60,583 nt of DNA from Polyangiaceae bacterium (GTDB lineage: Bacteria; Myxococcota_A; Polyangia; Polyangiales; Polyangiaceae), in the NCBI GenBank assembly GCA_029261965.1, contig JAJDAH010000240.1, forward strand, positions 1 to 60,583. The letters run 5' to 3'. This document shows positions 26,778-38,557 of this stretch, one piece after another (the stretch's first letter is position 1; every line of letters starts with the position of its first letter). The notes beneath the pieces are model-generated. The model made no database searches and was not told the origin of the DNA. It saw only the letters and a list, made by a program, of their open reading frames with translations. The translations under genes were made by a program, and so were the position numbers.

Positions 26778-29141
26778 ATGACTTCAGCGCTTGCCGAGCT
26801 CGGTCGCATCGACCCCCTTTTGGTTTGGGGTCTGTTCCCTCGCCTGCTCGGTGTCGTCTTCTTGATCTCCTTCGTCTCGCTGCTGCCGCAGATCGTGCCG
26901 ATGGCTGGGCGCGACGGCATCGTACCGGTGTCGCTTCGCCTCGGCCGCGTGAAGAAACATTTCGGGTGGCGACGCGTTTTCTACTTTCCGACGCTGTTGT
27001 GGATCGACTCACGCGACTTCACGCTCCGGCTCTTCACCCTGCTCGGCATCGCCGCGAGCCTGCTCGCGATTCATGGCGGCCCGTGGGCAGTCGTCGCGCT
27101 GCCTTGCTGCTACGTTTTGTACCTTTCGCTCGACCCCGCAGTCGGACTCGTCTTCCCGTGGGACGCGATGCTCTTCGAAGCGGGCTTCTTCAGCTTCCTT
27201 CTTCCGGCAACGCTCGGGCTGCCCGACATTCACGCGGTCGAAGCGCCGGAACCCGCCGTGGCTTGGGTCTACCGACTGCTGGTGTTCCGCGTGATTTTCG
27301 GCTTCGGCAAGCTCAAGTTCATGGGCAGCCAAAAGGACGACCTCGACTACCTCAAAGGCTTCCTCGTCAACCAACCGCTGCCTTCGCCGCTCGGCTGGTA
27401 CGCCCATGGTTTGCCCGTCACCGTCCTGAAGGGGGCGATGATCGTCATGTTCGTCACGGAGATGATCGTGCCGTTCTTCGTGTTCTTCCCCGGACCGCTG
27501 AGCGTGCTCGCGGCAGTGCTCATCGCGGGGCTGATGGTCGGCATCCAGCTGACAGGGAACTTCGGGTACTTCAACATCGGGATGGCCGTGCTGTGCGTCA
27601 CCCTCCTCGACTCACAAACCCCGACCGAGCTCGATGTCGCGACGCTGTTCTCACCCGGCGCTCCCGTGCTCACCAACGCGATCGTGCTGCTGCACACCAT
27701 CGGCGCGTTGCTGGTTCTCCCGTTCAACAGCTTCATCGCCAACTCGTGGATGTACTGGCCGTCTTTGTACCGAGCCCCGCGGTGGCTGCTTCTTCCGGTC
27801 GACCTGATCCGCGTCCTCCACCCGCTGCGCTGGTTGCATTCGTACGGCGTTTTCCCGCCAAAAACGCCGGCGGGTGTGAAGTGTGTCTTGGCGATGGAAG
27901 TGAGCTGGGACGGCAAAGAGTGGGTCGAATGCCGTCACCCCATCGCGCCCACGGCGCCCGAGTCCCCACCCCGGTTCGTAGCGCCGTACCACCACCGGGC
28001 GGACCAAGCGATGATCTACGAGACCTTCGGTTTGAACGACACGCACGTGTTCACCGGGGTCACCGCGGCCGGGTTTCCGTACATCATGGCGTACGCGTCG
28101 CCGCTCCAGGCTTTTGTGCAGCGAATGCTCGAGGGGCGGGGCAAAGCTGACTTTTTCTTCAAGAAGGGCACGTTTCCCGTCGACCGGGGCGCGCCCAAGA
28201 TGGCGCGGGTTCGAACCTACATGCTCGAGCGGACAGGCCACTCCGAGCGGAAAAAGACGGGCAAGTGGTGGCGGCGCACGTACCTCGGTCCGCATCTGCC
28301 ACCAACGGGACTTCAAGAGGGTTTCTGGGACGACGTTTGCCCTCCACCGGAGGTCTGGCACTTCGACACCTGGATCTGGAAACGGCGCTCCTCTCTTCGC
28401 CCGCTGATTCGGAGCGCGAGAAACGGAGAAAACGCCCTCGCTGCGGTCATCGCCGATACTGACGAAATCACTCACGATGACGTCGATCGGTTCTGGAATG
28501 AATTCGTGCCAGCGGTCGGAGCTGGTCGCGACGCCGACTGGTCGAAGCTGCCGGACGTCGTCGAGCAGGCACGCGCGCGCTACACACGCGCCGACATGCG
28601 GATCTTCGAGCGCATTTTGGGCAGATTCAGCGTGATGCTCTGCACCCGTCTGGAGCCGTTGGTGTTGGGGCGAATGCGAAAGCCTGTGCTCCCGATCAGC
28701 TCGTACTTCCGCTTGGGGATGCTGACGCATCAGATCATCGGCGAAGGTCGGGAAGCGTTCGAGAATGCATACGCGGACCCGGCTTCGACGGTCTCGGACG
28801 CCAAAGCACTCAGCATGCCTTCCGGCGGATACTTCATGGCACTGTTTCGATTCGAATCGTTCGTCTTCCAGGCACGCAAGCAGCGGCTGCTCGACGCCGT
28901 GCTCAACATGACGCGCGAGGGGAAACCCAACGAGATCCCGCCAATCATCGTCAAGCTCCAGGGATGGGCTCGGAGTCTGTTCGGCTGCATCGAAATGAGC
29001 GAATTTCTGCAGACGCAATTCACCGAGAGCCGCTACCAAGAACCGGACGCTCCCGAAGAAAGGCCCGTCTTCACGATGTTGCGCGACAGCACGACGCGGG
29101 TGACGTTCGAGCGCGACCCCACACCGGAGGCCGAGGCCTAA
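26778..29141 (+). CDS. Lipase maturation factor (LMF1)-family membrane protein
   Basis: A 787-residue protein with eight to ten transmembrane helices in the first 400 residues and a large soluble C-terminal part. The LMF blocks are seen in order: a WAMLFEAGF-like segment (here FPWDAMLFEAGFFSFLLPA), RLLVFRVIFGFGKLKFMG, GNFGYFNIGMAVLCVTLLD and the C-terminal MEVSWDGKEW followed by APYHHRADQAMIYE. In animals LMF1 is an ER protein needed for folding of homodimeric lipases. Bacterial family members are uncharacterised. The last 350 residues (from about 440) have no animal counterpart that I recognise. The stop overlaps the stop region of the convergent lipoprotein gene by 4 bp. Confidence 0.85.
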   Translation: MTSALAELGRIDPLLVWGLFPRLLGVVFLISFVSLLPQIVPMAGRDGIVPVSLRLGRVKKHFGWRRVFYFPTLLWIDSRDFTLRLFTLLGIAASLLAIHGGPWAVVALPCCYVLYLSLDPAVGLVFPWDAMLFEAGFFSFLLPATLGLPDIHAVEAPEPAVAWVYRLLVFRVIFGFGKLKFMGSQKDDLDYLKGFLVNQPLPSPLGWYAHGLPVTVLKGAMIVMFVTEMIVPFFVFFPGPLSVLAAVLIAGLMVGIQLTGNFGYFNIGMAVLCVTLLDSQTPTELDVATLFSPGAPVLTNAIVLLHTIGALLVLPFNSFIANSWMYWPSLYRAPRWLLLPVDLIRVLHPLRWLHSYGVFPPKTPAGVKCVLAMEVSWDGKEWVECRHPIAPTAPESPPRFVAPYHHRADQAMIYETFGLNDTHVFTGVTAAGFPYIMAYASPLQAFVQRMLEGRGKADFFFKKGTFPVDRGAPKMARVRTYMLERTGHSERKKTGKWWRRTYLGPHLPPTGLQEGFWDDVCPPPEVWHFDTWIWKRRSSLRPLIRSARNGENALAAVIADTDEITHDDVDRFWNEFVPAVGAGRDADWSKLPDVVEQARARYTRADMRIFERILGRFSVMLCTRLEPLVLGRMRKPVLPISSYFRLGMLTHQIIGEGREAFENAYADPASTVSDAKALSMPSGGYFMALFRFESFVFQARKQRLLDAVLNMTREGKPNEIPPIIVKLQGWARSLFGCIEMSEFLQTQFTESRYQEPDAPEERPVFTMLRDSTTRVTFERDPTPEAEA

Positions 29142-30787
29142 CGCGGAGGCGGAGGAGGCGGAGGCTCCATCATCGGAGGCGGGGGCGGCGGTACTTCGAG
29201 GATGCCCGCCCCAGCGAAAGTCTGATGCTCCCACTGCCCGGCAGGAGCCGAGTCGGCGGCGAGTGGCACGGGCTGCGCGACGAGCTGAGTGCCATCCCAC
29301 TGGAGCCGGAAGAGGCCACTCGTGCCCGCCGCGACAGACTCCTGGTTGAGCAGGATGTCCCCGACCATCGGCCGGAACTGCGCCGCGTCCGCTCCCAAGA
29401 GCTTGCTCGTGCCGTAGTTGACACCGAAGTAGTTCTCGTTCGGGAAGATGAGGTCGATGTCTTCGACCGCGACGCCGACGCTGTAGACCTCGTGGCTGCC
29501 GTTGGCGCCGAAGGCATGCAATTGCGTCTGCTCCTCCGCACCCGCGATGATCTTGCCCGCGATCGGGCCGTAGCGCACCGGCGCGTCGGGAACGACGACT
29601 GCCCCCTCGAGGTGGACGCCGATCGCGGCGAGCATCGTCGGTGTTCCGTTGACGTCGACTCGCCAGACTTGGCCGACCGTGGTGACGACGATGAGGTCGC
29701 CATTGAACACGCCGGTCGTGTCGACGAAGAGTGAGCCCCGCATGAGACCGTTACCGCCTCCTGGCAAGTCGACCCACGGATTGATGATGGTGTTGCCATC
29801 GTCTGTGACCCGGACGATCTGACCGTCGATGCCGTTGCCCACGAACATATCGCCCGCAATGAAGCCGCCACGATTGCCCGCCCGCGCGGTGGCGATTTTG
29901 ACCTCGTTGGTGAGCCCGCTGTAGGTCGAGAACGGTTGGTGAGTTCCGTCGTTCTCGATACGCTCGAAGTTGAGCGGAGCGCCGTTCGAATAGTTCACGC
30001 TCATGACCACAGTGTTCGTGGGCTCGTGAAAGTCGATCCCGATCGGATTGTTGAAGGTCGTCGATATCTGGGTGAGTGAGATCGCAGGCGGCGGGCCGTC
30101 GTTGAAGGTGTCCTTCGAGTTGATGATCCCGTCGGCGTCCCAATCGTCCGGCCCCTCTTCCAAGTCCGTGAGGCCGTCCGCGTCACTGTCTTCGTCGAGA
30201 AAATCGAGCGTGCCGTCGCCATCAGTGTCGACAGCGCCTTCGATCATGTCCGAAATGCCGTCCTGATCGCTGTCCTCGTCCAAGAAGTTCGGCCACTGGT
30301 CGCCGTCCACGTCCGTGTTGCCGTCCGCGCCATCTGGGATCCCATCGCCATCGGAGTCGGTGTCGCGGAAGTTCCAGATCCCGTCGCCGTCGAAATCGTC
30401 GCCACCGAGTTGCTCGTCAGCATCGAGAATGCCGTCGCCGTCGCTGTCGGTGTCCTGAAAGTCAGGGGTCCCGTCGCCATCCGTGTCCGGTGGCCCGCCG
30501 GGAGCGAGCTTGCCTTCGTCCCCGTCGCTGATGCCGTCGCCGTCTTCGTCGCCGTTCGGGTTGATGAAGCCACCGCCGCCGCCGCCGCTTCCGATCAAGC
30601 CGCCGCTTCCCGAGGCCCCTCCGGACGCGCTCGCGTCCAGGTTGCTGCCGCCCGATCCGCCGCCGGATCCGGGACTACCGCCGAACGCGCCGCCGCGGGT
30701 GTCCTCGCCGGTGCCGGAGCAGGAGAAAATCGCGCCGGCTCCGAGAACGGCCACGGCGGCGTGAAAGATCATTCGGTTGCGCGGCAT
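29138..30787 (-). CDS. Lipoprotein with thrombospondin-type-3-like Ca-binding repeats and beta-propeller-like domain
   Basis: A 549-residue lipoprotein (GAIFSC lipobox at about residue 23) with a good Shine-Dalgarno (GGGAGG). A Gly/Ser-rich spacer leads to about eight Asp-rich repeats (residues 76-232: DTDGDGTPDFQDTDSDGDGI-type), which bind Ca in thrombospondin 3 and OmpA-linked proteins. The rest is a beta-rich domain of repeating strands (NNPIGIDFHEPTNTVVMSV, GGFIAGDMFVGNG, NGDLIVVTTVGQVWRVDV) like NHL or SMP-type propellers, and a Pro-rich tail ends the protein. Location is the outer membrane or cell surface; the ligand is unknown. Confidence 0.82.
   Translation of the reverse strand: MPRNRMIFHAAVAVLGAGAIFSCSGTGEDTRGGAFGGSPGSGGGSGGSNLDASASGGASGSGGLIGSGGGGGGFINPNGDEDGDGISDGDEGKLAPGGPPDTDGDGTPDFQDTDSDGDGILDADEQLGGDDFDGDGIWNFRDTDSDGDGIPDGADGNTDVDGDQWPNFLDEDSDQDGISDMIEGAVDTDGDGTLDFLDEDSDADGLTDLEEGPDDWDADGIINSKDTFNDGPPPAISLTQISTTFNNPIGIDFHEPTNTVVMSVNYSNGAPLNFERIENDGTHQPFSTYSGLTNEVKIATARAGNRGGFIAGDMFVGNGIDGQIVRVTDDGNTIINPWVDLPGGGNGLMRGSLFVDTTGVFNGDLIVVTTVGQVWRVDVNGTPTMLAAIGVHLEGAVVVPDAPVRYGPIAGKIIAGAEEQTQLHAFGANGSHEVYSVGVAVEDIDLIFPNENYFGVNYGTSKLLGADAAQFRPMVGDILLNQESVAAGTSGLFRLQWDGTQLVAQPVPLAADSAPAGQWEHQTFAGAGILEVPPPPPPMMEPPPPPPPR
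30092..30562 (-). repeat. Asp-rich TSP3-like repeat block
   Basis: DNA coding about eight D-x-D-x-D-G-x-x-D repeats. The codon use is repetitive (gacggcgacggc-type), making short direct repeats visible across 470 bp. Confidence 0.85.
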
Positions 30788-30921: not shown

Positions 30922-31455
30922 TCAGGGCGGCGCCAACCAGGCTGCCACCCGCTCGTCGCTCTCAGTGATGTCGGCGACCCGCCAGCCGTTCGGGCCATTC
31001 TCGAGCAGCAAATGCACTTCGTCACAGCGCCGGGCACCGCACATGACATCGACCGCCAAAGCGGCGCGCTTCCCCGCGGCGCGCACCTCGCCCGCGATGA
31101 CCGCCTGAAACTTTCTGCCCGCCTGGGCGATGAAACCGGGACACTCTCCGCAGTCGGGCGTCGAGAGGGCGCCGGCGGCGGCGGCGTCGTCACCGTTGGC
31201 CGCTTTGATGAACGACGCCGCGACCGCGTTGGGGCTTGGCGCCGGCGCGGCGACGACCGGCTCCTCGACGCGCTTTGGCGGGTTGGCCGAGACGGGTTCG
31301 TCCTTTCGGGCCTCGACTTCGATCACGGGTTCGGGGGAGACCGACGACTCCGGCACCGAAGGATCCGCCGCCGGGGACCGGCTCTCGCAGGCTGCGATCA
31401 TCGCGAGCAGCGCTGCCATCGCGCCTGCACCAACAAACCGCTCGGTCACCCTCAT
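30922..31455 (-). CDS. Small lipoprotein with acidic/Pro linker and Cys-containing globular domain
   Basis: A 177-residue lipoprotein: signal with lipobox IAAC at residue 24, then an acidic Glu/Pro/Val linker (about 25-75) and a compact domain. The domain has a helix AVAASFIKAANGDD, the motif CGECPGF, and strands AALAVDVMCGARRCDEVHLLLENG, with four Cys likely forming two disulfides. This resembles the NTF2/SnoaL-like or DUF4878-type lipoprotein domains that bind small ligands; that match is weak. The Shine-Dalgarno GGAGG sits before the ATG. It is divergent from the SLC12 fusion gene across 201 bp that contain no gene. Confidence 0.75.
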   Translation of the reverse strand: MRVTERFVGAGAMAALLAMIAACESRSPAADPSVPESSVSPEPVIEVEARKDEPVSANPPKRVEEPVVAAPAPSPNAVAASFIKAANGDDAAAAGALSTPDCGECPGFIAQAGRKFQAVIAGEVRAAGKRAALAVDVMCGARRCDEVHLLLENGPNGWRVADITESDERVAAWLAPP

Positions 31456-31656: not shown

Positions 31657-34600
31657 GTGGCCAAGGACAGCAAGTTCGGGACCTTTGGAGGGGTCTTCAC
31701 GCCGTCGATCCTGACGATCCTCGGGGTGATCATGTACCTGCGGTTGCCGTGGGTCATCGGCAACGCCGGACTTCACGCCGCGCTCGGAATCATCCTCGTC
31801 GCCCACGTGATCAGCGTGTCGACCGGGCTGAGCATCTCGTCGATCGCCACCGACAAGAACGTGGGCGCCGGCGGCCCTTACTACATCGTTTCCCGGAGCC
31901 TCGGTCTCCCCATCGGCGGGACGCTCGGCGTCGCCTTGTTCATCGGCCTGTGCTTCAGCACGAGTCTGTACGTCATCGGTTTCTCGGAGAGCTTCCTTTC
32001 GGTCCTCGAGATCGAAGCGACGCCAACAGCCATTCGCATCTGCGGCACCGTGACGCTGGTGTTGCTCACGGCGGTCACGCTCATCAGCACGGCATTCGCC
32101 ATCAAGACTCAGTACATCATTCTGGTCTTGATCGCGCTTTCGCTAGTGTCGATCTTCATGGGGTCTTCCGGACCGGCCCCGGCACCCACGACTCCCGCGC
32201 CGTCCGGCGACGGACCGAGCATCGACCTGATGTTCGGGATCTTCTTCCCAGCGGTGACCGGCTTCACTGCTGGCGTCAACATGTCCGGGGATCTTCGAAA
32301 CCCCAAGCAGTCGATCCCGCGCGGGACGATGCTGGCCATCGTCGTCGGATTGGCGGTGTACGTGAGCCTGACCGTGTTCTTGGCGCTCCGGGTGCCAGCG
32401 GCGATGCTCGAAGACGAAGGCGTGCTCATCCAAATCGCCTGGATCCCCGCCCTCGTCGTCGCGGGGATCTGGGGAGCGACACTCTCTTCCGGACTCGGGA
32501 GCATCCTCGGCGCGCCGAGAATACTCCAGGCGCTTTCGAGCGACGCGATCATGCCTCGCGTTTTCGCCCGCGGTCACGGCAAGACCAACGAGCCCCGAAA
32601 CGCGCTCGTGCTCGCTTTCGCCCTCGCGGAGGGCGGAATCCTCATCGCCGAGCTGAACGCCATCGCGCGGATCGTTTCCATGGTGTTCCTGGCGATGTAC
32701 GGCTTTCTGAACATCAGCTGCGCGATCGAAAGCTGGGCCAGTCCCGACTTCCGCCCGGCGTTCCGGATCCCTCGCATGGTGAGTGTGGTTGGGGCGGTGA
32801 CGTGCGTCGTCATCATGATCCAGCTCGACCTGCCGGCCATGTTGGGCGCGATCACCTTGATGGTGGGACTGTTCTTGTGGTTGCAGCGCAAGCAACTCCA
32901 GCTCGACGCCGGCGATGCCTGGGAGGGGATCTGGTCCTCGCTCATCCGCGCGGGGCTCTACCGCCTGACCCACGAGCGGAAGCAGCAACGCAACTGGCGC
33001 CCGAACATACTGCTCTTTCGCGCCGAGGGCTCGGCGACAAGACCTCTGGCCAGGTTCGGTGAGGCGCTGATCACAGGAAACGGCATCTTGACCGACTTCG
33101 AGCTTCAAGAAGGCCGGAGGCGAAAAAAAGAGGACCCCGATCCAACGCCCGAATCACGCGAAACCGAAGACGAACGCCCGATGGGAATCTTCCGGCGCAC
33201 ACTCTCCGCCAACGACCCCTTCGAGGTGATTGGCGGCGTCTGCAAACACTACGGTTTCGCCGGACTCGAGCCGAACACGCTGCTCCTGAGCTGGTCCATG
33301 CGAGCGAACGGACACGAGTCCTTCGCACGCCTGCTCGACGAAGTCTCTGGGCTCGATTTCAACGTGTTGGTCCACTCGCACGGCGAGCCGAAGCCAGGGG
33401 CAGAGGGCGTCGACGTCTGGTGGCGGGCCGACGCTGGCAACATCGGATTCGCCCTCGCGCTGTTGCGCTTCATGACGCAGTCGAGTGAGTGGGAGGACGC
33501 GCCGCTCAGGTTTCTTGTCGTCAGCAGTGACACGTCGAACAACGACAACCTGCGCACCACGATGCGCCGGATCCTCAAAGAGTCGCGAGTCGAAGCGACG
33601 TTGAAAATCCTCAACGACACTTTCGCGGACCGGAGCTTCGAAGATCGCGTCCGTGACCTCTCGGAGAGCTCGAGCCTGACGATCATGGGCCTGCCGAACG
33701 AAACCGGCGGGTTCGACGAGGAAGAGCAAGAGCGCACAGACAAGCTCGTTCGACAGCTCGGCAGCGTCCTGCTCGTTCGGGGTTCCTCGTCGTTCGAGGA
33801 ATTGTTGCCGACCGGGAGAGAGGCGGCGGTGTCGTTTCTGCCTCCTTTCGCGGAAGACGGAGACGCCCCGGAGAAGTTGCCGGAGCTACGCGTCTCGGAC
33901 ACGCCAGACCTCGCCAGAGCCGCCGGTGAGCTCGCCGCCGCGTATCAGCATCTGGTGAGCAGCTTCCACGAGCTGTGCATCAAAAAACTCTATGGCCGCA
34001 ACGTCGAAGTCGTGCGCTCCATCCAGGCGGCGGCTCGCAAACATCTCAAGGTCGACAAGGCACTCTCCGCGGCCAACCCACGGCGCCAACGCACGGCATT
34101 CAATCGGCTGCAGAGCTCTTTCCTGCTGGATTGCAGGAATCTGCTCGACGAGTTCGAAGAAAAACAACTCCCGGACCTGCGGTCGGTGCTCGAAGGCGGC
34201 ATCGACGCCTTCGTGTCGGACGAAAACGTCGTCGACCGGAGCGACGACCCGGAGGAGCTCGTCGTGCAGAGAGACCAGTCTGCGTTCGAGCCGGAGGAAG
34301 GGGACTCGGCGTACGTACGCAGTTTCAAACGTCGGCGCCGCCTCTTGGGTTGGTTCCGCCGCGAGCCGCCCAGCTACCGAATCCCCGTCGCGAAGCTCAG
34401 GGCCTACTACTTCGACCGGGCGATCCGCAGCATGGTGCAACCGACCGCTCGTCAGTTCGTCACCGACAGCCAACAGATCGCGATTCATCTCGGCAAGATC
34501 CTCAACTCCACCCGTGCTGCCCCGCCAGACGAAGAGGCCGGTGTGAGCCTCGCCGACGTGCTGGACGAGCAACGACGGCAGCTCGACGAGCACCTCGAAG

Positions 34601-36789
34601 AGCTCGCCGGCCGCGGCAAGACGCTGGTCAATCGCCACCAGTGGCAAATGCTCGTTGGCGCACTCGAGCTGGCCCAGGCCTACGCCGACGACATCGAGCG
34701 GCTCGACGTGCTCCCGCTGATTCGCTCGGATAGGAAAGTCGAAAACCGCGACGCATTGTCCGCCGAGCTCGACGAGCTGAGCGAGCAGTGGCTGGTGAAT
34801 CAGCGGCACCTGTTGGGTCGCGCGAAACTCGCGCTCTCCCTGTCGGGCTTTCAGCACCGACTCGCGACGATCGCAGGACGAGAACGCGAAGCCATCGCAC
34901 TCGGAATCAAGAACGGCGCGTTGAGCGAGTGCGTACAGCTGATGGAAACCCTGCGAACGTTCCGCAGCGAGCTCGAAAAGGGTGCGGACGCGACCCGGGT
35001 CCAGATCCACATCGACTTCAAGAACCAGTTCGACCCCAAACCCATCATCGACGACCTGGTGCGAGAATGCAGCGACAGCACCGACGAGCTTCCCGAATCC
35101 ATCCACACTCTGACCGACGAGGGGATTCTCGCGCTCGAAGAGGGGCGCACCGATGGCCTCGGCACGATGGATTTGCCGGTTCGACGGCTCGTGCAGTTCC
35201 TCGTCGAAACCGAGCTCATAGGTGGCGTGCAGGAAGCCCTGGCGAGCGTGCCCCAGCTCGAGCAGCAAGCCACCGGGGTCGCACAGGACGTCATCCGACT
35301 GGTGACGTTTCAGATCAGCGAGCTCGACGGAGGCAGTGATCTCTCGCCGGCAGAGTTCGCCGAGCACATGGTGCCCGTCGTGGACAACGGCATCGAGCGA
35401 TTGCGGGGACAGATAGAGAAACTGTCGGCGATTACCCCAACGCTACAGGAAACCGTCGACGAAAAGCTCCACCTCGTCGTGGACGGCTCGAATGCCTACG
35501 ACCTCTCCACCGCGAGTGACAAGCTCGAACAGCACATCCGTGTGCACCAAGGGAAAAGAGCAGTTTCCGGAGCGCGGGGTTTCCTTCGCCGCGGCGCCAA
35601 GACGGTGCGGAGCGCGATGGTGCGCGCGCTCTACGGTCGAAGTGCTGGCGTGCTGCTGGCTCGCGAACGCCAAGCCGCAGCACGGACTGGCGACGACAGA
35701 GTCGTCGACCGCGTGTCGTCCTTGGTGCAAAACAACAGTCCGCGCCCCGAGGTCCTCGAGCACCTGCCGTTCTACTATCGGCAGTTGTTTTTCGGACAAT
35801 CTGCCATCAACGACACTTTCTGGGTCGACCGCGAAGCACAGCTCGCCAAGGCAAAACGTGCGATCGCGAGCTTCCGCCGTGGGGCGAGCGGTGCCGTCTT
35901 CGTCATCGGCGAGAGACTGAGCGGAAAGAGCGTGCTCGTTCAAAGGGTGACGACCGAGCTCCTGGAGAAACGTCCCGTGTACCGGGTTCATGCTCCACCC
36001 GGTGGCTCCATCGACCTGACGGCGTTCCATCGAGCGCTCCGCAAGGCGCTCGAGCTCGACGGCGAGATACCCGAGCTGTTCAGCGCGCTCCCCGAAGGTG
36101 CCGTCATCGTGCTCGACGACCTCCAGATGTGGTGGGAACGAAGCCCCGCGGGCCTCGAAGTGATTCAGCAGGTGCTGAATCTGATTGAAAGATACGGCAA
36201 ACGGACGCTCTTCGTCATGGCGCTGGGGACTCAGCCGTTTCACTTCATCAGTCGCCTCCTGCCGCTTGCGGACAGTGCATTGGCCATCTTGGACTGCACA
36301 CCGATGCCGGCAGAGGCGCTGAAGTCGATCGTCACGCTGCGCCACGCCTCGACTGGGCTGAAGTTCGAGTTCGAATCGAAGAGCGAAGACGAGCTCGGCG
36401 ATTGGCGGCTCGCCCGTCTCTTCTCTGACTATTTCGAGTATTCCGGTGGCGTAGTCGGTGTCGCCCTGCGCGCTTGGATCCACCGCATCCGCCGTCTGCG
36501 CGACGACTCGCTCGAAATCGAGCGACCGGATGCTGCGGGTTGGGAAGCCATCGACGCGCTGGGGACCGAGCGCGTCGCCATGTTGCTCGAGCTCGTCCTG
36601 CACAAGCAGCTCAGTCTGACGCGCCTCCGACGCATCACTGGATTCGAGAACCGCGACCTGAGGCGAGAAATCGACGCACTCATTCGCATGGGTTTGGTCG
36701 TGGAAAGCCGACAGCGGGTCGTCGAGATCAACCCCGACATCTGTCACATCGTGCACAGTCGTTTCTCGAAGCGGGGGTTGATCGCATGA
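31657..36789 (+). CDS. SLC12-type cation-chloride cotransporter fused to helical region and P-loop ATPase
   Basis: A 1710-residue protein. The first 425 residues are an APC-superfamily transporter of the SLC12 (Na-K-Cl cotransporter) type: FGTFGGVFTPSILTILGVIMYLRLPW at the first helix (quoted in part), GAGGPYYIVSRSLG, FPAVTGFTAGVNMSGDLRNP and GSILGAPRILQALSSD. A cytosolic SLC12 C-domain follows (about 435-740: WRPNILLFR, DNLRTTMRRILKESRVEATL). Residues about 750-1390 are long helices of no known family. A P-loop ATPase (Walker A GERLSGKS 1418-1425, Walker B IVLDDLQ with Asp1487-1488) and a winged-helix-like end (LTRLRRITGFENRDLRREID) complete it. It starts with GTG. It is inferred to be an NTP-regulated ion cotransporter; its stop overlaps the mscS-like start. 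Confidence 0.88.
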   Translation: MAKDSKFGTFGGVFTPSILTILGVIMYLRLPWVIGNAGLHAALGIILVAHVISVSTGLSISSIATDKNVGAGGPYYIVSRSLGLPIGGTLGVALFIGLCFSTSLYVIGFSESFLSVLEIEATPTAIRICGTVTLVLLTAVTLISTAFAIKTQYIILVLIALSLVSIFMGSSGPAPAPTTPAPSGDGPSIDLMFGIFFPAVTGFTAGVNMSGDLRNPKQSIPRGTMLAIVVGLAVYVSLTVFLALRVPAAMLEDEGVLIQIAWIPALVVAGIWGATLSSGLGSILGAPRILQALSSDAIMPRVFARGHGKTNEPRNALVLAFALAEGGILIAELNAIARIVSMVFLAMYGFLNISCAIESWASPDFRPAFRIPRMVSVVGAVTCVVIMIQLDLPAMLGAITLMVGLFLWLQRKQLQLDAGDAWEGIWSSLIRAGLYRLTHERKQQRNWRPNILLFRAEGSATRPLARFGEALITGNGILTDFELQEGRRRKKEDPDPTPESRETEDERPMGIFRRTLSANDPFEVIGGVCKHYGFAGLEPNTLLLSWSMRANGHESFARLLDEVSGLDFNVLVHSHGEPKPGAEGVDVWWRADAGNIGFALALLRFMTQSSEWEDAPLRFLVVSSDTSNNDNLRTTMRRILKESRVEATLKILNDTFADRSFEDRVRDLSESSSLTIMGLPNETGGFDEEEQERTDKLVRQLGSVLLVRGSSSFEELLPTGREAAVSFLPPFAEDGDAPEKLPELRVSDTPDLARAAGELAAAYQHLVSSFHELCIKKLYGRNVEVVRSIQAAARKHLKVDKALSAANPRRQRTAFNRLQSSFLLDCRNLLDEFEEKQLPDLRSVLEGGIDAFVSDENVVDRSDDPEELVVQRDQSAFEPEEGDSAYVRSFKRRRRLLGWFRREPPSYRIPVAKLRAYYFDRAIRSMVQPTARQFVTDSQQIAIHLGKILNSTRAAPPDEEAGVSLADVLDEQRRQLDEHLEELAGRGKTLVNRHQWQMLVGALELAQAYADDIERLDVLPLIRSDRKVENRDALSAELDELSEQWLVNQRHLLGRAKLALSLSGFQHRLATIAGREREAIALGIKNGALSECVQLMETLRTFRSELEKGADATRVQIHIDFKNQFDPKPIIDDLVRECSDSTDELPESIHTLTDEGILALEEGRTDGLGTMDLPVRRLVQFLVETELIGGVQEALASVPQLEQQATGVAQDVIRLVTFQISELDGGSDLSPAEFAEHMVPVVDNGIERLRGQIEKLSAITPTLQETVDEKLHLVVDGSNAYDLSTASDKLEQHIRVHQGKRAVSGARGFLRRGAKTVRSAMVRALYGRSAGVLLARERQAAARTGDDRVVDRVSSLVQNNSPRPEVLEHLPFYYRQLFFGQSAINDTFWVDREAQLAKAKRAIASFRRGASGAVFVIGERLSGKSVLVQRVTTELLEKRPVYRVHAPPGGSIDLTAFHRALRKALELDGEIPELFSALPEGAVIVLDDLQMWWERSPAGLEVIQQVLNLIERYGKRTLFVMALGTQPFHFISRLLPLADSALAILDCTPMPAEALKSIVTLRHASTGLKFEFESKSEDELGDWRLARLFSDYFEYSGGVVGVALRAWIHRIRRLRDDSLEIERPDAAGWEAIDALGTERVAMLLELVLHKQLSLTRLRRITGFENRDLRREIDALIRMGLVVESRQRVVEINPDICHIVHSRFSKRGLIA

Positions 36790-37505
36790 ACCCGAGCTTC
36801 ATTTCGCTCGGTTTCGGCGTCGTTTGGGTTCTGGCCTGGGGGGTCGCCCTGTACGTCGCCCTACGAGGCGCGCGTTGGGCCGTCGAGCTGCTCCCGTTCA
36901 GTCGCGACCGTCGAGACGCCATCGCGCGCTCGAGCCCCGTCATCGCCACCATTGTGATTTTTCTCTTTGCGATCTTCGCGGCCAGAACGCTCTTCGACGG
37001 TGACGCGCTACCTTTCGCGATGGTGTTGTTGTTCGTCGGCTTCGCCGCCGCTTCCTGGGGTGCGATTCGGGACTTCGTCAGTGGCGTGGTGCTCAAAGCC
37101 GAAGACGTGTGCAACGTCGGCGACGATGTGCGAATCGGCGGCGTCGAGGGGCGCATCTCCAAGCTCGGACTTCGCGCTCTGACGCTGCAAACCCACGAGG
37201 GGGAGACAGCCATCGTTCCTTACGCGACGATCGCGCGGGAATCGATCGTCAAGACCGAAACGGTGGCCCGCGGCGCTGCTCACGTCTTCGGCGTGCGAAT
37301 CGCCCCGGCGCACTCACCCGCTGCCGCGCGCGCGCTCGTCCGCCGCGCCGCCCTCGGGTCGCACTGGGCATCCATCGTGCGCGAGCCAGAAGTAGCCGCT
37401 GGGCCGGACGGAGAGCTCAAGGTCACGATCTTCGCCCTCGACCTCGACCACGCGCCCGAAGTCGAAGCGGCTGTTCGGCGAGCCGTCGCCGACATGGACC
37501 AGTAG
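36786..37505 (+). CDS. MscS-family small mechanosensitive channel
   Basis: A 239-residue membrane protein. Three hydrophobic helices come first (LGFGVVWVLAWGVALYVAL, IVIFLFAIFAARTLF, FAMVLLFVGFAAASWGAIRDF). The third passes into the MscS pore-lining helix and beta domain: SGVVLKAEDVCNVGDDVRIGG, then GRISKLGLRALTLQTHEGETA and IVPYATIARESIV, which parallel the RPFRxGDxVxxxGxxGxVxxI and IPNxxI blocks of MscS. A shortened alpha/beta C-terminal domain ends it. MscS channels release small osmolytes under membrane tension. The ATG overlaps the SLC12-ATPase stop by 4 nt (ATGA), so the two are translated together. Confidence 0.88.
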   Translation: MNPSFISLGFGVVWVLAWGVALYVALRGARWAVELLPFSRDRRDAIARSSPVIATIVIFLFAIFAARTLFDGDALPFAMVLLFVGFAAASWGAIRDFVSGVVLKAEDVCNVGDDVRIGGVEGRISKLGLRALTLQTHEGETAIVPYATIARESIVKTETVARGAAHVFGVRIAPAHSPAAARALVRRAALGSHWASIVREPEVAAGPDGELKVTIFALDLDHAPEVEAAVRRAVADMDQ

Positions 37506-37567: not shown

Positions 37568-38557
37568 ATGCTCGATCTCGCCAGACTGAAAGCGATCAAG
37601 CTGCACAAGAAACCACTCGGGCAACGTCTCGTCGGGCATGTGCTGACGCTCGACTATCTCCTCCCCCGGAAGACGGAGATCGTGCTCGAAGGGACGGAGA
37701 ACATTCCCGCCAAGGGCGGAGTGTTCCTCGCGATGAACCACACGGATCGCTACAACTACTGGCCGCTGCAGTACAAGATGTGGAAGGACGGGCTGCCGTT
37801 CACGGCGACGTGGGTCAAGGGGAAGTACTACGAGAATCCCATGATCGGGGCGTTCATGGATTCCATGAACAACATCCCGTTACCATCCCGCGGCTACGTC
37901 ATCAGCACCGACTTTCGGAACGTGGTCGAACGAGCACCCAGCGACGACGAATACCGGTTGCTGCGCGACCTGGTCGACGGCAAGCGGGCAGCCACGGAGC
38001 CGCTGCCAGAAATCGCGAGCCCCGATCTGTCCAAGTACCTTCTGTCCGGCGGAGCAGCGACGACGGAGACGTTCCTCGAGCGTTTCGACACGCTGTTCTC
38101 ATCGATGATCGCGCAGGTGGTCGAGCTCAACCGGCGCGCCATCGAGGAGCTCGACTTGTCCGTGCTGGTGTTTCCCGAAGGCACGAGGTCCATTCGGCTC
38201 TCGAAGGGCCACAACGGTCTCGCCCAGATGGCGCAGCACCTCGGCGCCCCCATCATTCCCGTCGGGTGCAATGGCAGCGACCGCCTCTACCCGAAGAACT
38301 CGCCCTTCTCCAAGGGAGGGCGGGTCGTCTACCGGATTGGCAAGCCCCTACACGTCGACGGGCCGGAGCTGGGCGCGCACCGTGTTCCAAAAACGGCGCT
38401 GCCATTCACACAAGAAGCGACGAGGCAGCACGGAGACCAATACACGGCGATCACCAGCGTCGTGATGGAGCGAATCCGAGACCTGCTCGACGCCGAGCAC
38501 CTCCCGACGGACGCGGAAGCCGGCGGCGGCGCGCAGGGCATGCAGCGCTTCCTCTAG
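37568..38557 (+). CDS. 1-acyl-glycerol-3-phosphate acyltransferase-like protein (PlsC family)
   Basis: A 329-residue acyltransferase. The acceptor-site motif is a variant of NHxxxxD (AMNHTDRYNYWP), and the substrate-binding VFPEGTRS lies about 140 residues further, separated by a large insertion (about residues 110-190) not found in PlsC. GAPIIPVGCNG follows, as in the family. No transmembrane helix is strong; membrane association is likely peripheral. Phospholipid or other acyl transfer is inferred. The insertion and the absence of an Asp five residues after His make the exact substrate uncertain. It follows the MscS gene by 62 bp and could be co-transcribed. Confidence 0.82.
   Translation: MLDLARLKAIKLHKKPLGQRLVGHVLTLDYLLPRKTEIVLEGTENIPAKGGVFLAMNHTDRYNYWPLQYKMWKDGLPFTATWVKGKYYENPMIGAFMDSMNNIPLPSRGYVISTDFRNVVERAPSDDEYRLLRDLVDGKRAATEPLPEIASPDLSKYLLSGGAATTETFLERFDTLFSSMIAQVVELNRRAIEELDLSVLVFPEGTRSIRLSKGHNGLAQMAQHLGAPIIPVGCNGSDRLYPKNSPFSKGGRVVYRIGKPLHVDGPELGAHRVPKTALPFTQEATRQHGDQYTAITSVVMERIRDLLDAEHLPTDAEAGGGAQGMQRFL

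Follow-up and report, generated by a model that had tools for sequence, protein, structure and literature searches.

MscS channels are regarded as passive safety valves, and SLC12 transporters (cation–chloride cotransporters, CCCs) as plain secondary transporters that are set by kinases in animals. bCNG channels are MscS proteins with a cyclic-nucleotide domain. ATPases of the ORC/Cdc6, TnsC and ExeA-like kinds act on DNA or in secretion, and those of the ORC/Cdc6/TnsC type serve more as loaders and scaffolds than as gates. Here we describe a locus from a Polyangiaceae bacterium (class Polyangia) in which an SLC12 transporter, a long helical region and an AAA+ ATPase are encoded as one protein, followed immediately by a gene for an MscS-type channel. 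The locus lies in contig JAJDAH010000240.1 of assembly GCA_029261965.1, a 9.6-Mb draft in 480 contigs; positions 1 to 60,583 of this contig, the whole stretch that was analysed, are called the window below.

The fusion resembles SLC12 proteins (NKCC1, KCC and the Methanosarcina acetivorans CCC) in that its membrane domain aligns to NKCC1 and KCC4, keeps most residues of the ion sites and carries the ATLSS signature, but it has about 970 extra residues (the helical array and the AAA+ ATPase) and an MscS partner. With ORC/Cdc6, TnsC and, presumably, ExeA-like proteins the ATPase shares the predicted fold of residues 1365-1710 and the Walker motifs, but it is joined to a transporter, and its Walker B (xDLE) departs from the standard form. 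Relatives of the helical–AAA+ module are also fused to the domain of CPA2/Kef-type exchangers (PF00999), again with MscS downstream, whereas the Kef-type proteins known so far have RCK/TrkA-N or Usp domains in place of this module. The partner channel differs from other MscS channels by its own clade, by an Asp and a Trp in the third transmembrane segment (TM3), and by its tie to an ATPase-transporter. bCNG channels are alike in idea, as an MscS-type pore under nucleotide control; they carry the ligand domain themselves, whereas in the window the ATPase sits on the transporter encoded beside the channel. Animal CCCs regulate cell volume, and the ATP-binding site of known CCCs lies in a USP-like C-domain, according to the accessible text of PMC8280820; the fusion carries a separate AAA+ ATPase. 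In its accessible text, a 2013 survey of transporters (PMC3924187) lists no CCC in Myxococcus xanthus. The whole fusion–MscS system is covered by no model of PADLOC, Pfam or NCBIfam, and a literature search, whose scope took in neither bioRxiv preprints nor the majority of subscription papers, turned up no account of a fusion or pairing of this kind. The parts are of known kinds; the combined system is, as far as we know, undescribed.

Results

An SLC12 transporter and an ATPase share one frame

An earlier reading of the locus from its letters (the sequence-only reading) had described an uninterrupted 1710-codon frame running from an SLC12 transporter through helices to an ATPase, and this was borne out by frame reading and by Pfam and phmmer matches (Table 1). 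The G+C content along the gene is uniform (0.61-0.65). Residues 13-410 match AA_permease (PF00324; 2e-48, 165.6 bits against a cut-off of 24.6), and the best PDB chains found by phmmer for the transporter part were KCC4 and NKCC1 (best 1e-78). The match to the SLC12 C-domain model PF03522 at residues 581-654 was weak (21.7-23.4 bits, below the cut-off of 27), and the NCBIfam model TIGR00930 (K-Cl cotransporter) missed its cut-off (387.7 vs. 953.4 bits).

The full domain order was found in one open frame in 16 of 192 genomes of the class, source genome counted, and in three more as pieces at contig ends. The 15 class relatives are about 40-54% identical to the window fusion, and one of them aligned as two pieces (47 and 38%). 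A pattern scan of 84,980 species genomes with an alignment query returned 124 module relatives from Myxococcota, Bacteroidota, Calditrichota, Latescibacterota, Neomarinimicrobiota and Delongbacteria; a separate scan with a single protein as query gave no matches. Eighty of the 124 loci were kept. All 80 encode the ATPase, and 69 have it in one frame with the SLC12 membrane domain; most of the remaining 11 are cut by contig ends. Close-relative carriers include Plesiocystis, Enhygromyxa and Paraliomyxa, and the SLC12-type module was matched in 20 of 377 genomes of the phylum (E 1e-30 or better, with typing incomplete).

Since this domain order is found in independently assembled genomes from several phyla, a frameshift or assembly join, which the sequence-only reading had suggested looking for near residue 745, was ruled out, and neither is present. 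Moreover, homologues lacking the ATPase are not the rule: the fusion is the rule within its clade, and stand-alone SLC12 proteins are a separate, shorter kind. These results confirmed that the transporter–ATPase fusion is real and old.

The fusion is paired with one clade of MscS-type channels

The sequence-only reading was right on the domain order, the P-loop ATPase and the winged helix, but it overlooked the adjoining MscS gene, whose start overlaps the stop of the fusion gene. The product exceeds the PF00924 cut-off (47.3 vs. 20.2 bits) and has three hydrophobic segments, judged by eye, followed by the beta domain. In 13 aligned partners the TM3 region contains an invariant Asp and a near-invariant Trp.

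A locus was scored as paired if an MscS domain started at most 1.3 kb downstream on the same strand; distinct proteins with enough DNA were counted, and the window copy was not. MscS was found downstream of 66 of 72 SLC12 fusions, all 22 exchanger-type and all 14 TM-type proteins (two further carriers of the module, described below) and six of seven 5'-truncated pieces. It was also found at two contig fragments that hold pieces of SLC12 fusions, and in six rows the downstream DNA was too short for a decision. Four further exchanger-type loci (L236, L239, L240 and L241) were likewise followed by MscS (4/4); of the other regions fetched with them, L237 and L238 repeat known loci, L242 has fewer than 200 bases downstream, and L235 is the fusion piece of genome G276. 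The four-base stop/start overlap recurs in 34 of 66 SLC12, 21 of 22 exchanger and 5 of 14 TM pairs.

Stand-alone SLC12 genes were used as the control. Among 20 such loci, L029 and L066 are the same, which leaves 19 distinct genes; MscS was found downstream of none of the 14 with at least 1.2 kb of downstream DNA and of none of the 19 overall (L025, L028, L030, L032 and L065 have less than 1.2 kb). A chance neighbourhood is ruled out by these controls and by the scarcity of MscS-domain genes, of which the 9.6 Mb of the source genome contain only nine, one of them in the window and one the partner of a second system on contig C387.

The six SLC12 fusions without a neighbouring MscS come from five genomes of Bacteroidales. 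These genomes contain six unlinked MscS genes (open frames 245-262), two of them in the genome that has two unpaired fusions, and all six belong to the SLC12-partner clade (starred 99). No ATPase module was found within 1.5 kb on either side of the six, and a second MscS beside one of them groups with background channels. Because the unlinked channels keep to the same clade, the unpaired cases support the pairing.

Furthermore, a search of 317 genomes of the class with the partner alignment gave one match each in 25 genomes (E ≤ 1e-25), every one beside a fusion, and the 25 coincide exactly with the genomes whose typed fusion comes with downstream DNA. The class searches scored at most the best eight candidates per genome (partner search) or the best six (earlier fusion search, whose weaker matches were not all typed), so that absences are not absolute. 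In G276 and G151 the fusion pieces run off contig ends, and no partner MscS was found among the best candidates scored in these assemblies. Our confidence in the pairing is high, and the MscS-type channel is a strong candidate for the partner of the fusion module.

In the G276 piece (L235, G276:C230) the reading frame is broken downstream of the membrane domain, and the piece continues beyond the end of its contig of 4680 bases.

Ion sites of the SLC12 part

Ion-site residues were assigned from the lists given in the accessible text of PMC11994965 and PMC11641049. In the window protein, four of five residues of the K+ site, three of three of chloride site 1 and two of four of chloride site 2 are kept. 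Across 75 fusions, the Ile, Tyr, Pro and Thr of the K+ site are each kept in 73-75, chloride site 1 is kept, and the Ser pair of TM8 is present in 74 (S277) and 73 (S278). ATLSS marks Na+-binding CCCs and STLGA marks KCCs, as stated in the accessible part of PMC11641049. Because TM8 of the fusion carries ATLSS, we read the SLC12 part as a putative importer of chloride coupled to Na+, perhaps with K+.

The residues after G202 in TM6 are F203 and T204 in place of Ile and Met, so that Thr (32266-32268) occupies the position of the chloride-site Met in the window. Among the 75 fusions this Met is replaced by Thr in 48 and by Glu in 23, and it is Met in seven of seven stand-alone SLC12 proteins. 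The replacement may change anion handling.

The helical region and the AAA+ ATPase

The middle 640-660 residues, approximately, had no match in Pfam or NCBIfam. Modelled alone (59 rows), the helical region reached a predicted local distance difference test score (pLDDT) of 89 and a predicted template modelling score (pTM) of 0.79. Foldseek returned no PDB match at 1e-3 (best 0.035, probability 0.20), and the top VIA row had a Z of 10.3 with a root-mean-square deviation (rmsd) of 49. A known fold was considered for this region and gave no clear match, the VIA rows being common helix bundles. Alignment of its two halves by hhalign (probability 89, E 2e-6, 100 columns) is suggestive, but only suggestive, of an internal duplication.

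The last 329 residues alone exceeded the AAA_16 cut-off (37.4 vs. 32.6 bits); inside the whole protein the score was 25.8, below the cut-off. A model of residues 740-1710 (16 rows; pLDDT 84, pTM 0.53) contains an AAA+ domain and a winged helix. Foldseek matched the ATPase model to 1w5t_A (8.9e-07) and 2qby_A (1.2e-06). VIA gave Z values of 13.4-15.1 among the 50 matches listed, which comprise ORC/Cdc6 and TnsC and also NSF and RFC; the top row among the matches listed was the Drosophila chain 7jgr_G (Z 15.1, rmsd 3.5, 233 residues; residues 1365-1710). Together with the conservation of the Walker motifs, these matches agree with the P-loop ATPase and winged-helix end first proposed for the frame; the predicted fold is that of an NTPase, and no C-terminal match to a non-NTPase was seen. 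Walker B has the unusual form xDLE in the fusion family, and R1562 is possibly a sensor/arginine motif. Of the outputs that the sequence-only reading put forward, an NTP-dependent gate is possible, and a DNA-binding output is suggested by the modelled fold's resemblance to ORC and TnsC only.

The helical–ATPase module is portable

A related helical region and ATPase were also found on Na+/H+ exchanger-type proteins, with profile comparison probabilities of 97 over 581 columns (helical region) and 99.4 (ATPase). Twenty-three proteins of the exchanger type were tallied. PF00999 was found in 12 of the 13 scanned with Pfam; L100, which lacks it, and the unscanned rest were typed with a profile built in this analysis. 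In a third group (TM type, 14 members) the ATPase is preceded by a part that looks periplasmic and by a few membrane-spanning segments; among the nine members scanned with Pfam, no family exceeded its cut-off at the N-terminus. In addition, one genus (L105-L108) has an unfused ATPase of about 692 residues whose Walker A ends in KR and not in K-S/T. In L105 (4095-10899) a gap of 24 bases separates the end of this ATPase gene from two exchanger + Usp genes (Pfam) that follow it; the same first exchanger adjoins the ATPase in L107 and L108, and in L106 the best frame is about 1.9 kb off (BLAST). The module is therefore not special to SLC12.

Eight exchanger fusions (L119, L120, L121, L122, L124, L126, L134 and L135) carry about 400-1000 additional N-terminal residues ahead of the membrane domain, with no family over its cut-off in the five scanned (L119, L121, L124, L134 and L135).

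On the ATPase tree (89 rows, truncated and short rows left out), the SLC12 type forms one cluster, the exchangers two, the TM type one and the unfused genus one, and the N-terminal kinds require 5 changes vs. 39.9 with shuffled labels. Three soluble Bacteroidota modules without a transporter (L198, L200 and L216) nest inside the SLC12 cluster and thus appear to have lost the transporter. The MscS tree (103 rows) contains clades of SLC12 partners (46), TM partners (15) and exchanger partners (8 and 15), and 19 background channels fall in none of them. The ATPase and MscS trees split into the same four clades. Both trees are of a quick kind without bootstrap and include a random 18 (ATPase) or 16 (MscS) of the Bacteroidota-range SLC12 rows; on the MscS tree, L132 was labelled exchanger type and the C387 channel TM type beforehand.

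The second system of the source genome (G000:C387:3545-7929, L228) encodes a helical/AAA+ protein followed by an MscS channel of the TM-partner clade; the class search, which scored few candidates per genome, did not pick it up for that reason. Genomes G171, G141 and G069 each carry all three kinds. The presence of several module kinds in one genome, here in the source genome and these three, argues for separate jobs under one principle.

Neighbouring genes and a stand-alone paralogue

The acyltransferase gene after MscS and the other neighbours in the window were also tried, and none gave a conserved match like that of MscS in the related loci examined. The DxDxDG repeats of the upstream lipoprotein-like protein presumably bind calcium. 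A promoter scan at the fusion locus found none, and such a scan is not informative for this phylum. The source genome also has a stand-alone SLC12 paralogue (G000:C69:61855-63987; L052:6326-8542) of 738 amino acids, about 40% identical, without the ATPase module or an MscS neighbour.

Table 1. Coordinates of the fusion gene, its domains and motifs, the partner channel and adjoining genes in the window.
Feature	Position	Strand	Evidence or remark
SLC12–helical–AAA+ fusion gene	31657..36789	+	1710 codons/1710 amino acids, GTG start, TGA stop, no internal stop
SLC12 (cation–chloride cotransporter) membrane domain, residues 6-425	31672..32931	+	Pfam AA_permease, phmmer
TM1 ion-site segment LTILGVI	31711..31731	+	Cl site 1 G23 V24 I25 and K+ site I21 kept; T20 replaces Asn
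TM3 Tyr105, K+ site	31969..31971	+	Tyr in 73/75 fusions
TM6 FFPAVTG	32242..32262	+	K+ site P198, T201 and Cl site 2 G202 kept
TM8 segment with ATLSS, residues 274-278	32473..32493	+	Na+-site signature of NKCC-type and bacterial CCCs
TM10 FLAMYGF, Tyr348 in Cl site 2	32686..32706	+	Tyr in 74/75 fusions
Putative SLC12-type cytosolic C-domain, about residues 440-740	32974..33876	+	Weak PF03522 match; phmmer KCC stretches to residue 707
Helical region, residues 740-1385	33874..35811	+	No family match; model pLDDT 89
AAA+ ATPase domain, predicted ORC/Cdc6/TnsC-like, about residues 1365-1629	35749..36543	+	Pfam, model, fold search
Walker A GERLSGKS, residues 1418-1425	35908..35931	+	K1424 in 73/74 and S/T1425 in 74/74 SLC12 fusions
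Walker B region IVLDDLQMWW	36106..36135	+	D1488 in 73/74 SLC12 fusions
LRHASTG, R1562	36337..36357	+	Arg in 74/74 SLC12 fusions
Predicted winged-helix end, about residues 1630-1710	36544..36786	+	Model secondary structure, ORC/TnsC alignments
ATGA, MscS start overlapping fusion stop	36786..36789	+	
Partner MscS-type channel gene, 239 amino acids	36786..37505	+	PF00924 2.2e-12; SLC12-partner clade
MscS beta-domain	37065..37247	+	
Acyltransferase gene after MscS	37568-38557		
Secreted lipoprotein-like protein, many Asp-rich DxDxDG repeats	29138-30787	-	No Pfam match
Small lipoprotein-like gene, divergent from fusion gene	30922-31455	-	No Pfam match

Discussion

We propose that the fusion and the MscS channel form one membrane complex that acts as an ATP-dependent regulator of ions and cell volume. 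The data establish the fusion itself, the retention of the ATP site and of most ion-site residues, the pairing with a single MscS clade and the occurrence of the module on other transporters. The complex, its ATP dependence, the direction of transport and the opposite control of its two halves are what we infer, at chances that we consider about even, and our confidence in the mechanism of the unit is moderate. The role of animal CCCs in cell volume, together with their binding of ATP, speaks for the proposal, as does the exchanger gene next to the unfused ATPase in L105. The SLC12 part would import chloride with Na+ and perhaps K+. In the cytosol, the helical–AAA+ module would bind ATP through its ORC/TnsC-like domain and would touch the dedicated MscS channel encoded alongside, and the ATPase and helical lever would read the ATP state and/or crowding, or tension. 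In a loading state the transporter would be on and the channel shut; in a venting state the transporter would be off and the channel open.

Several observations weigh against this proposal. The Asn of the K+ site is Thr in 73 of 75 fusions, and chloride site 2 differs at two of its four residues, with Gly and Tyr kept and Phe (74/75) in place of Ile. The window copy has Gln at residue 1490 (36124-36126), just past Walker B, where 73 of 74 SLC12 fusions have Glu, and it may therefore be a slow or inactive ATPase. Walker A of the exchanger-type proteins is eroded (K to R in 5 of 23, S/T to A in 9 of 23), which means that ATP hydrolysis cannot be a requirement for every module protein. Moreover, MscS was found downstream of none of seven soluble or unfused modules, including none of five in the unfused genus; the soluble modules L200 and L216 have neither a fused transporter nor MscS, and L243, a 5'-truncated piece with an untyped module, has no MscS in the 1.4 kb before its contig end.

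The module could instead be an assembly, clustering or turnover factor, in which the AAA+ part loads or places the transporter and the channel without gating them. The computed fold match to ATPases that are loaders or scaffolds more than gates speaks for this explanation, as do the long helices, which suit a scaffold, and the swapping of the module among unrelated transporters. However, the permanent fusion to a transporter and the pairing with a single channel clade point to continuous control, and we judge such a factor unlikely. It is also improbable, in our estimate, that the locus is a plain co-regulated operon whose transporter–ATPase and MscS channel act apart in osmotic stress and have only expression in common. 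MscS channels and CCCs both take part in osmotic or volume control, and the partner is unlinked in the six Bacteroidales fusions. Nevertheless, the partners fall into one clade for SLC12, one for the TM type and two for the exchangers, the trees split alike, the unlinked partners stay in the same clade, and stand-alone SLC12 genes were not accompanied by MscS (0/14).

An alarm or defence device, in which the ATPase would detect damage or infection and respond by opening the MscS pore, causing growth stop or death, is very improbable. A P-loop ATPase with a winged helix beside a pore resembles sensor–effector pairs, and the N-terminal parts vary among the groups. However, no PADLOC 2.0.0 model matched any of the five proteins tested at E 0.01 or better, and a known anti-phage system was rejected on this basis; the domains in the SLC12 and exchanger parts belong to transporters and are not of a recognition kind, most SLC12 ion-site residues are kept, and the N-terminal kind changes only five times on the tree. 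A membrane-tethered DNA binder that uses the ORC-like domain and winged helix to link ion state to replication or transcription is scarcely credible. The best fold matches, to ORC/Cdc6 and TnsC, include structures determined together with DNA, but fold likeness shows no function and the conserved neighbour is a channel.

Beyond the proposed fusion–MscS complex, the module may represent a class of modular ion-homeostasis machines, a wider view that we hold tentatively and at somewhat less than even chances. In such a class, an AAA+ module with a new helical lever, placed on interchangeable transporters (SLC12, CPA2) or on a periplasmic sensor, would gate a dedicated MscS channel using ATP, so that a single complex would handle both uptake and emergency release of ions, as a bacterial equivalent of volume regulation in animals.

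If the proposal is true, a widespread bacterial unit with one ATPase tied to both MscS and SLC12 would show that ATP can gate or power turgor control. The locus would also offer a genetically tractable, kinase-free system for asking how a CCC is switched. Furthermore, the portability of the module, seen in its other partners, predicts more ion systems under the same control.

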